From positions 1 through 34,403 of the IMG/VR virus record IMGVR_UViG_3300046491_000462: DNA of 34,403 bases; one strand, given 5' to 3'. Source of the DNA: a virus. The notes beneath the pieces are model-generated. The model made no database searches. It was not told the DNA's origin and was given only the letters and a program-made list of their open reading frames with translations. This document shows, piece by piece, positions 25,662 through 28,392 of the stretch (the first letter of the stretch is position 1; every line of letters starts with the position of its first letter). The position numbers and the translations under genes were made by a program.

Positions 25662-25738
25662 GGCGCTAACCCGTCGGTAAGAAGTACCGGGCTAGGTTCG
25701 CGCCTTAGAGGAAGTGATCGAGTTTCTTACTCAGACAA
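25662..25738 (-). promoter_or_regulatory. Candidate activator-dependent late promoter region
   Basis: The region lies between the Mor terminator and the first late gene, where Mu-like phages place a promoter driven by Mor/C. A 7-bp inverted repeat GTAAGAA/TTCTTAC (25677-25683 and 25724-25730) brackets it. No good sigma-70 -35 box is visible, as expected for an activator-dependent promoter, and I could not fix the start of transcription. Confidence 0.45.
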
Positions 25739-25765
25739 GAAAAACCCCCGCACTGGCGGGGGTTT
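25736..25765 (-). terminator. Strong intrinsic terminator after the Mor gene
   Basis: A perfect 10-bp stem (25742-25751 with 25756-25765) and a four-base loop are followed on the minus strand by TTTTTCTT. It lies 30 bases after the activator stop and should end early/middle transcription, isolating the late operon. Confidence 0.92.
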
Positions 25766-25795
25766 GGTGGACTTACATTGCTGGGTGCAATGCTA

Positions 25796-26239: not shown

Positions 26240-26643
26240 TGTGTCGGCCTCCCATTCCGTTTGGCATCATAGGTGAGGGCCGACACCATACTCCCAAGTT
26301 GACGAGCATCCAGCCACTCCACCCGCTCGACCTTGAACATTCGCAGAGCCATGCCATCGGCATAAGCCCACTCACGCCCAGCTTCGGCCAGGAAGGCTTC
26401 GATTTTGCTAACCAACTTTTCCCGATCAGGTGCAACTTCTGCTCTACCTACCTTTGATTTCTTTGGCTTCCACCCCAAGCGCACCAGCTCCGTGAGGACG
26501 GCCGAGGTTTTCAGTGGTGATAAATCCTTTGCCGAACTCACTCCAGCAACTCTCTGGAGCATTGCCCGGTAGGTGTCCTCATCCAGTGCCAAATCCTTCT
26601 TGGCGATATGGATCTTTGATAGATCAAGATTGCGCCGATTCAT
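26236..26643 (-). CDS. gemA: GemA / gp16-like regulator (DUF1018)
   Basis: 135 residues. IHIAKKDLALDEDTYRAMLQR, SAKDLSPLKTSAVLTELVRLGWK and WAYADGMALRMFKVERVEWL are the conserved blocks of the GemA/gp16 family. In Mu, gemA is reported to change gyrase-dependent host gene expression and cell division. It follows the RHH-like gene through ATGA and precedes mor, the order seen in Mu and relatives. The family call is firm; the physiological role is borrowed from Mu. Confidence 0.92.
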   Translation of the reverse strand: MNRRNLDLSKIHIAKKDLALDEDTYRAMLQRVAGVSSAKDLSPLKTSAVLTELVRLGWKPKKSKVGRAEVAPDREKLVSKIEAFLAEAGREWAYADGMALRMFKVERVEWLDARQLGSMVSALTYDAKRNGRPTQ

Positions 26644-26918
26644 TTTCTCCTCACTTCGACCAACTTCCTGAACGCCATCGGGTCACGCTTCGCCAGCTTG
26701 GCCGCCGCGTGAATTAGTAGCGTCAGTGCCTCGGCCGCATCATCGAATTCCCCAGCCGTTCGAACGGTCTCCAAGGCAGCACTTGTTCCCGAATACATCT
26801 CCATCTTAAATTTCGATGCGCCCATCGCCTTACGCTTTACTGTGCGAGCGTCACGCATGCGCTGTTGCCGCTCGCGAGCAAGCCGGCGTTTCCGTTCGAC
26901 CGGGGTTTCCTGTGTCAT
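26640..26918 (-). CDS. Small basic protein, possible ribbon-helix-helix fold
   Basis: 92 residues. The N-terminus is extremely basic (RKRRLARERQQRMRDA, VKRKAMG). It is followed by KFKMEMYSGTSAALETVRTAG and FDDAAEALTLLIHAAAKLAK, which read as one strand and two helices like a ribbon-helix-helix DNA-binding domain. That fold is inferred from pattern only. Its start codon lies just beyond the second hammerhead candidate, with only a weak ribosome site near the ribozyme core, so initiation may depend on ribozyme folding or cleavage. Confidence 0.75.
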   Translation of the reverse strand: MTQETPVERKRRLARERQQRMRDARTVKRKAMGASKFKMEMYSGTSAALETVRTAGEFDDAAEALTLLIHAAAKLAKRDPMAFRKLVEVRRK

Positions 26919-26987: not shown

Positions 26988-27659
26988 TCAATTGAGGGAC
27001 AGTTGTTCCTCACCATTCACCCCGTGATTCAAACGCACGTCACCCGCCGCGAGAATGCCGTGCAGGGCGTCGGTCATAGCCCGTACACCATTCCCCTTGT
27101 TGGCATTGCGGTCACGACAGTCGAGCTTTTCCGTTTCCGCGTGATGCTTGAGCATGTACGCGGCAGCGGCAGAGGACGGCTCATCGTTACCGGCGAAGGC
27201 CATGACCTGCTTGCGCACAGCCGATACCCAAGCCCCGCAGAAAACGTCGGCGCGCTTGGTCTTGGTCGAGGCCTTGCAGCGCTTTAATTGGGTGCTGATA
27301 AAGTCACGGCGGGACTGACGAACCTGGCGCAGAAGCAAGGTCATGGTGTAGCTGGCAAGCTCAGCCATTTCACCAATGAAGCGCCATTCACCAACACCTG
27401 CCATAAATAGAATCTTGCAGGCGAAAGCCTGGGTAACGGCCCCGGCTAGGTTGGCTTCCCACTGAGGCGGAGTCATCTTTGAACCGCTACGGGCGGCGCA
27501 CTCGTATACCTCTGAGAGCTGGACATCCGATTCCTCCAGCCGGAACTTCTCCATCAAGGCGCGAGCCTGTCGCATTGCAGCAGCCGCTTCGTGCGGGTTA
27601 TCGCTCGCTGCCAAGCGGAGCAGCTTCTTTATTTTGTCCAGGGCTTTACTGTGGTCCAT
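26988..27659 (-). CDS. DUF2786 family protein
   Basis: 223 residues. The N-terminal KALDKIKKLLRLAASDNPHEAAAAMRQARALMEK is the DUF2786 signature. A DUF7168-like region follows (WEANLAGAVTQAFACKILF; ASYTMTLLLRQVRQSRRDF; FCGAWVSAVRKQVMAFAG). The family is frequent in phages and unexplained. No catalytic motif is apparent. Its TGA stop supplies the first bases of the second hammerhead candidate, and it begins four bases after the preceding gene, so both genes sit together on the segment bounded by the two ribozymes. Confidence 0.88.
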   Translation of the reverse strand: MDHSKALDKIKKLLRLAASDNPHEAAAAMRQARALMEKFRLEESDVQLSEVYECAARSGSKMTPPQWEANLAGAVTQAFACKILFMAGVGEWRFIGEMAELASYTMTLLLRQVRQSRRDFISTQLKRCKASTKTKRADVFCGAWVSAVRKQVMAFAGNDEPSSAAAAYMLKHHAETEKLDCRDRNANKGNGVRAMTDALHGILAAGDVRLNHGVNGEEQLSLN

Positions 27660-27663
27660 GGCG

Positions 27664-28080
27664 TCAGATCTCGTTGATTCGGGTGATGCTGGTGTTGTTT
27701 GCCAGAAAGTGCTTTTTCAGGGTGTTGAAGCTTTTCCAGGACCAGTCATAGGTGAAGAATTTGGCTGCCGTCATTTCGGCGGCTCTGCGTTTTCCGAAGA
27801 TTTTCCGATAGGCCTCGCTCTCTTTTTTGGAATAAAGTGCACGAGTCACCTTGCGGTAAAAACGGCGAGTCTCCTCATGTTCGGGTTCGCCGGTTTTGTG
27901 GTCGCAAGCCAACCAGATCCCCTTCAAATATCCATCCACATAAACCACCGTCGACCAACTCTTTTTGGTGCTGCAAGTTTGCTGCGTCAGGCAGATTTCG
28001 AACCCATCACATTTGAGCTTCATGCTGCCCCACGGGCTCGCCATCTGCTCTTTCAGCGCATCCCAATCGGCTTGTTCCAT
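27664..28080 (-). CDS. Unknown early protein between the two ribozymes
   Basis: 138 residues, not recognised. The N-terminal half is beta-like with cysteines (LKCDGFEICLTQQTCSTKKSW), then VVYVDGYLKGIWLACD, then a strongly basic helical half (ETRRFYRKVTRALYSKKE, YRKIFGKRRAAEMTAAKFF). It resembles small phage proteins of unknown function that accompany DUF2786 genes. AGGA six bases before ATG gives a good ribosome site, which lies just downstream of the first hammerhead core. It is probably co-translated with DUF2786. Confidence 0.78.
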   Translation of the reverse strand: MEQADWDALKEQMASPWGSMKLKCDGFEICLTQQTCSTKKSWSTVVYVDGYLKGIWLACDHKTGEPEHEETRRFYRKVTRALYSKKESEAYRKIFGKRRAAEMTAAKFFTYDWSWKSFNTLKKHFLANNTSITRINEI

Positions 28081-28092
28081 GTCGTCCTCGGC

Positions 28093-28155
28093 TGCTCATC
28101 AGTAACCGGCCACCGCGCCGGATAGACCACCCCAGTTACCCGAGGTGGTTTCGCA
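28093..28155 (-). ncRNA. Candidate type II hammerhead ribozyme, copy 1
   Basis: On the minus strand: stem II 3' strand TGC (28155-28153); GAA (28152-28150); stem III of ten pairs (28149-28140 with 28135-28126) capped by a GUAA tetraloop and beginning with the required A-U pair; C17 at 28125; stem I (TATCCGGC/GCCGGTTA, seven pairs and one U/U mismatch) with a GCGGTG loop; core CTGATGA (28102-28096), the canonical form; then GCA (28095-28093) closing a three-pair stem II. Cleavage is expected between 28125 and 28124. The element starts at the upstream stop codon (28156-28158). Confidence 0.87.
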
Positions 28156-28392
28156 TTAATGGATGGTCGGTTTGGTCATCTGCTTTTCGCGCATGGCCTG
28201 GCAGATCTCGCAATCACACGCCGCATGCCCGACGACAAAGTCGACAGGAATCCGGGCAAGTAGCATCGGCACGCCAGTCATAAGTGCGCTTGCTACACGG
28301 CCCGCTTTGCTGCCACTAAGTTGAGATTGGTTGTCGACTTGGATAGAGACGCCATCGGCGCTGTCTTCGATGGTGATCTGGAACTTGGCCAT
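28156..28392 (-). CDS. Small unknown protein with cysteine cluster
   Basis: 78 residues. It begins with a strand (MAKFQITIEDSADGVSIQVD), continues with an Ala/Ser/Leu helix and ends with HAACDCEICQAM, three cysteines (59, 61, 64) able to bind a metal if paired with a further ligand such as His56. No family was recognised. GAGAG lies upstream of the ATG. The 59-base gap before it holds only a small TTCAG/CTGAA palindrome. The stop codon abuts the first hammerhead candidate. Confidence 0.72.
   Translation of the reverse strand: MAKFQITIEDSADGVSIQVDNQSQLSGSKAGRVASALMTGVPMLLARIPVDFVVGHAACDCEICQAMREKQMTKPTIH

Follow-up and report, generated by a model that had tools for sequence, protein, structure and literature searches.

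Paired type II hammerhead ribozymes bracket an exchangeable gene block in the early operon of a Mu-like phage

Early genes and two ribozymes

The DNA under study, called the window below, is the full 34,403 bases of virus record IMGVR_UViG_3300046491_000462, a Mu-like Pseudomonas-type phage. Among named genomes, its close relatives occur as prophages of Pseudomonas species. Along its minus strand lie a Ner-like repressor, MuA (with Mu-transpos_C and Mu DNA-binding domains), a MuB-like ATPase, and several early genes, followed in order by DUF3164, a 78-aa gene, a first ribozyme (RZ1), phrog_5671, DUF2786/DUF7168, a second ribozyme (RZ2), phrog_4093, GemA, and Mor. After Mor are a holin, an endolysin, a spanin, and a Mu-type portal protein. 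Given this gene order, a transcript of the operon has RZ1 ahead of two early genes and RZ2 behind them. The features of the region, all on the minus strand, are:

28156–28392, minus: 78-aa gene (phrog_3652) ahead of RZ1, which its stop codon adjoins
28086–28156, minus: RZ1, complete type II hammerhead ribozyme (Rfam RF02276, 66.2 bits, E = 8.2 × 10−12; covariation)
28126–28149, minus: RZ1 stem III hairpin, 10 bp, GUAA loop (sequence; folding, −16.6 kcal/mol alone)
28103–28124, minus: RZ1 stem I hairpin (sequence)
28094–28102, minus: RZ1 CUGAUGA core plus G10.1/C10.2; stem II pairs with C28153/G28154
28115–28112 (CGGU) with 28092–28089 (GCCG), minus: RZ1 pseudoknot of loop I with the tail, conserved over 47 sequences
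28086–28089, minus: GAGG, likely Shine-Dalgarno of the phrog_5671 gene, judged from the sequence
27664–28080, minus: cassette gene 1, phrog_5671 protein, 138 aa
26988–27659, minus: cassette gene 2, DUF2786 + DUF7168 protein (phrog_421), 223 aa
26920–26989, minus: RZ2, second complete type II hammerhead (Rfam RF02276, 62.1 bits, E = 9.7 × 10−11)
26949–26946 (UAGU) with 26926–26923 (GCUA), minus: RZ2 pseudoknot of the loop with the tail
26640–26918, minus: 92-aa gene (phrog_4093) after RZ2 and ahead of GemA and Mor

RZ1 had been proposed by the first-pass annotation as a complete type II hammerhead on the minus strand, directly after a phage stop codon in the early operon of a Mu-like phage, and in these respects the proposal is borne out: every element listed for it is present, the preceding stop is that of the 78-aa gene, and the operon has the repressor, MuA, and MuB upstream and GemA and Mor downstream. 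Against all 4227 Rfam families the match to RF02276 (Hammerhead_II) lies far above the gathering score of 37. The covariance-model alignment places A15.1 at 28149, U16.1 at 28126, and C17 at 28125, so that the ten-pair stem III with its opening A-U pair and GUAA loop, and then C17 after GGU, stem I, CUGAUGA (28102–28096), and G10.1 (28095), which pairs with C11.1 (28153) on the 5′ side of GAA (28152–28150), are all where they had been read from the letters. From the alignment position, the predicted cut falls between 28125 and 28124, the same site as first proposed. Two points needed amendment. The span given for the motif, 28155–28093, was slightly short because the model match includes the 3′ tail that forms the pseudoknot with loop I; and a single ribozyme had been claimed, which was an incomplete picture, since a second copy at 26989–26920 had been missed and the pair brackets a gene block and coincides with gene-exchange seams.

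RZ2 is joined to the stop codon of the DUF2786 gene, with its predicted cut between 26959 and 26958. Both ribozymes align over the full model (1–66 of 66) with scores above the gathering threshold, both have the invariant CUGANGA, GAAA, C11.1-G10.1, A15.1-U16.1, and H17, and both have stems I and III closed by loops with stem II open, which is the type II topology. Position 7 is C in RZ2; among relatives it is T, C, A, or G while the remaining core is constant. Self-cleavage of RZ1 and RZ2 is expected because members of this family are active (PMC3088659).

The same search of 14 control genomes gave zero matches to RF02276, and a chance match is rejected by the E value of 8 × 10−12, the covariation described below, and the conservation. 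No other Rfam family is above threshold in the window, with only three weak sub-threshold matches up to E = 5. Folding energy by itself is uninformative, with z scores of −1.0 and −2.1. A reading of stem III as an intrinsic terminator was discarded: it is followed by CUAUCC or CUGCCC, with no U run. Elsewhere in the window, the intergenic stretch of about 134 nt after Mor (25662–25795) has a weak hairpin-like match to Leu_leader of 25.4 bits, below threshold, and may hold a Mor-dependent middle promoter.

As for the bracketed genes themselves, PHROGs assign them no function, and phrog_5671 has no convincing relative of solved structure (best E = 0.59). A defense or counter-defense role for them was considered and dropped, PADLOC having no match at E = 0.01.

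Covariation and the pseudoknot

The proposed structure was evaluated in an alignment of 47 diverse ribozymes from relatives. Standard pairs fill 95.9% of the cells in that structure, changes on both sides are present in 16 of 23 pairs, the observed value of each of the five measures lies beyond all 500 shuffles, and the signal is lost when partners are slid by 1–3 columns. Covariation is seen in stems I and III, and together with the covariance model it upholds the earlier assignment to the type II class. The invariance of the core in this alignment is partly by construction, because the pattern scan demanded the core bases; the Rfam matches are independent of that scan.

Although the scan did not ask for pairing of loop I with the 3′ tail, this pseudoknot is paired in 98.4% of cells over the 47 sequences. 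Its second pair is always G-C, A-U, or C-G. As A-U is limited to the clade of the window and C-G to the Acinetobacter copy, this amounts to about two independent double changes.

Conservation and placement among relatives

One or two RF02276 matches are found in 71 of 95 related records, and many of the relatives are two-ribozyme loci. The records lacking a ribozyme mostly form a separate group in which DUF2786 directly follows DUF3164. For comparisons of gene content, we used 77 backbone loci, in which DUF3164 is present and GemA is at least 50% identical; a few are near-duplicates, and IMG/VR records can be fragments. The first position holds a ribozyme in all 77, of which 76 were found by the pattern scan and one, L025, by Rfam. 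In that one (L025 5924–5995), GUGAAA replaces GCGAAA, a change of 11.1 from C to U giving a G-U closing pair, and the Rfam score is still 63 bits. Further examples are type II hammerheads in Acinetobacter (L134 6192–6258), Desulfovibrio piger (L137 6435–6500), and Duganella (L153 5640–5706), each in the early region of a Mu-like prophage, in the corresponding stretch after DUF3164, and mostly placed immediately 3′ of a stop codon.

Spacing to the neighboring genes is tight. In 83 of the 115 ribozymes, the stop codon of the upstream gene ends exactly 1 nt ahead of C11.1; in another 19, the distance is 2 nt. The next start codon is usually 9–17 nt 3′ of G10.1. A ribosome terminating on the upstream gene would probably cover the 5′ half of the ribozyme, and this raises the idea of a translation switch, where the ribozyme fold masks the next start region until cleavage, or until the ribosome on the upstream gene refolds the RNA. 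The pseudoknot strand of RZ1 does adjoin the GAGG, which is 5 nt 5′ of the ATG at 28080 that begins phrog_5671. Still, stem I and probably the pseudoknot would remain after cleavage, leaving the start region little changed, and there is no clear Shine-Dalgarno in the RZ2 tails, so we consider a switch of this kind very improbable.

Gene exchange between the ribozymes

What lies between the first ribozyme and GemA varies. The 77 loci have 17 layouts (20 raw layouts, with three merged by counting the L025 ribozyme and ignoring the spacing after phrog_4093), assembled from phrog_5671, DUF2786, a 70-aa cysteine-rich protein (phrog_10154), a 113-aa protein (phrog_1273), a 56-aa ORF, or nothing. Wherever phrog_5671 is present, in 34 of 34 loci, it has a ribozyme in front. 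The third exchangeable gene in the ribozyme-bracketed block, encoding the cysteine-rich protein (CGDCVHCRRC...), is found at L014 5781–5996 and in L123, L062, L005, L072, L087, L156, and L162, and its product is possibly a zinc ribbon.

The clearest comparison is between the window and L034, where the left flanks are 97% and the right flanks 98% identical and the blocks between the ribozymes differ: 1,102 nt carrying two genes in the window against 426 nt in L034, whose single gene there is only 81% identical. The right breakpoint of this pair is the stop codon that touches RZ2. Near-identical backbones with unlike blocks were also found for L036/L156 (98/100%) and L086/L010 (95/94%). These comparisons suggest that the DNA of RZ1 and RZ2 coincides with the recombination seams of an exchangeable block. 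In two further records, ribozymes separate single genes, with the order RZ-phrog_5671-RZ-DUF2786 in L059 (7419–7490) and RZ-113aa-RZ-phrog_5671 in L039 (5498–5572 and 5925–5995).

Gene content also varies at junctions that have no ribozyme, namely in the interval between DUF3164 and RZ1 and at the border of phrog_5671 and DUF2786, and L050 and L056 differ in the presence of DUF2786 without an RZ2. Hence, exchange does not need a ribozyme. This is also one of the points in favor of plain mRNA processing, by which the cuts would set differing stability or translation of the early genes and the overlap with seams would be a by-product of an intergenic site. The position of the ribozymes between stop and start codons fits with that, and Perreault et al. 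propose processing to operon- or gene-length mRNAs (PMC3088659). Taken alone, however, processing leaves the variability of the bracketed genes and the mosaic single ribozymes described next unexplained, although both could arise if recombination happened by chance in a conserved stretch between genes. We regard processing by itself as an unlikely full account, but the most serious competitor to the one we prefer, in which the ribozymes are also insulators at the seams.

Single and chimeric ribozymes

In 16 of the 77 loci, there is one ribozyme and neither phrog_5671 nor DUF2786, and when compared with full relatives, several of these single ribozymes are mosaics. The ribozyme of L089 is RZ1-like up to the cut site and RZ2-like after it, with 8 mismatches if one crossover is allowed versus 41 or 43 if it is not. 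L086 is RZ1-like through stem I with an RZ2-like tail, and in L042, a member of the same clade as the window, stem III is RZ1-like and stem I is identical to that of RZ2. The switch from RZ1-like to RZ2-like was found in L089, L064, L052, L057, and L121, and in L042 by inspection. Because the flanks must switch in any case, the informative part is what lies inside the ribozyme, and there the pattern of RZ1 then RZ2, as judged by nearest stem III and nearest stem I, is exhibited by 6 of 17 single ribozymes (counting the near-duplicates L064 and L066) as opposed to 2 of 78 control ribozymes. About a third of the loci without the cassette thus have a chimeric ribozyme. Another six single ribozymes are RZ2-like throughout; for that reason they need not be deletion products, and an originally single ribozyme is possible for them.

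Such chimeras could come about in DNA or in RNA. If cleaved halves of RZ1 and RZ2 were re-ligated, the block between them would be skipped or released as a circle. The halves are indeed interchangeable by sequence, being joined by an invariant 2-bp stem II, and the chimeric DNA of L089 and L042 has its junction at or near the cut site. The crossover points are not constant, though: L079 switches ahead of the stem III loop, L089 at the cut, and L086 past stem I. This is as DNA recombination predicts and not as a fixed RNA junction would, and it disfavors RNA-level splicing as the source of the chimeras. There is also no reverse transcriptase among the proteins examined, and Perreault et al. sought spliced or circular products and detected none (PMC3088659). 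We accordingly give splicing very little credence in comparison with recombination of DNA. Between the RZ1 and RZ2 of a single genome, the longest shared word has a median length of 17 nt, and in the window it is 10 nt. Since these words are short, exchange between phages in one cell seems likelier than intragenomic recombination of RZ1 with RZ2.

A proposed role at exchange seams

The account we favor, with moderate confidence, is that cleavage by the ribozymes divides the early mRNA into independent units, and that they serve as natural insulators at the seams where genes are exchanged. RZ1 and RZ2 would each cut the polycistronic message just 3′ of the upstream stop codon and just before the next gene, and the two cuts would yield three pieces, with the block from RZ1 to RZ2 separated from the remaining operon. 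The 3′ end of an upstream piece would be the stem III hairpin, and the downstream pieces would start with a 5′-OH and the stem I hairpin. Hairpins at the 3′ terminus slow exonucleases, and a 5′-OH with a terminal hairpin escapes the decay that depends on a 5′-monophosphate. Because the cuts would leave such hairpins and a 5′-OH, each gene unit would have defined ends of its own, probably resistant to decay, and a 5′ leader that does not depend on the sequence upstream. Cleavage in vivo, the protection of these ends, and insulation as the benefit under selection are here argued from structure and comparison.

The type II form would also tolerate recombination. One hairpin belongs to each half, and the halves are linked only by the 2-bp stem II, so halves from different copies would still form an intact motif. 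Counting against seams and insulation is that the related ribozyme-free phages keep DUF2786 straight after DUF3164. A broader and more tentative suggestion is that hammerheads in Mu-like phages are part of a modular design for gene exchange, with a self-cleaving seam that tolerates recombination as DNA and insulates newly acquired genes as RNA. In that event, accessory genes could be swapped into the operon without disturbing it.

Relation to known ribozymes and insulators

Type II hammerheads, their pseudoknot, and prophage pairs flanking genes of varying identity were described by Perreault et al. in 2011, who observed in vitro activity for 14 of 18 consensus hammerheads and activity in E. 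coli for one prophage cluster, and who suggested processing as the likely role (PMC3088659). RZ1 and RZ2 are like other RF02276 members in full-length match, core, closed stems I and III, short open stem II, and pseudoknot, with no difference aside from the C at variable position 7 in RZ2. They are in the same orientation, close together, and flanking phage genes, as clustered prophage hammerheads are. The clusters of Figure 3 in the 2011 paper, such as the ardA cluster of Agrobacterium tumefaciens, likewise have two ribozymes of the same orientation around a short variable block of phage genes. The present locus differs from those in its other genes (phrog_5671, DUF2786, and the 70-aa cysteine-rich protein) and in being one locus traced through 77 related loci, with block exchange and mosaic single ribozymes. 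Hence the ribozyme family and the gene-flanking arrangement were already known, and what seems new is the exchange at one fixed locus together with the chimeric single ribozymes. In the open-licence literature, we found neither ribozymes as exchange seams nor chimeric ribozymes tied to mosaicism, an absence that is itself weak evidence.

The hammerhead crystal structure with a pseudoknot (PMC11300833) shares the idea of a pseudoknot in place of the loop-loop contact; it is of a designed two-strand construct, and a genomic role is not its topic. Hammerheads have been known from phages and bacteria since 2010–2011.

In synthetic biology, hammerheads of the RiboJ type are insulators that trim the leader so that the 5′ end is independent of upstream sequence. 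This use is mentioned in PMC7536230. RiboJ insulators are engineered parts; the phage ribozymes resemble them in the expected trimming of the leader, and insulation is what we hypothesize for them here. The boundary or linker sequences of mosaic phages are conserved short stretches of DNA between genes at which modules are exchanged.

The difference at this locus is that the boundary DNA encodes a catalytic RNA, and the single chimeric ribozyme in cassette-less loci links catalytic RNA to phage genome mosaicism. The locus also offers a natural comparison, with close phages having full, partial, or empty blocks between the ribozymes, so both mRNA processing and the shielding of the operon are directly testable. 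An isolated member of the group is Pseudomonas phage LPB1, in which a type II hammerhead missing from the annotation precedes the DUF2786 gene (L116 3924–3995; HE584812.1 7997–8068). The LPB1 record annotates a terminator and a promoter farther upstream instead of the hammerhead.
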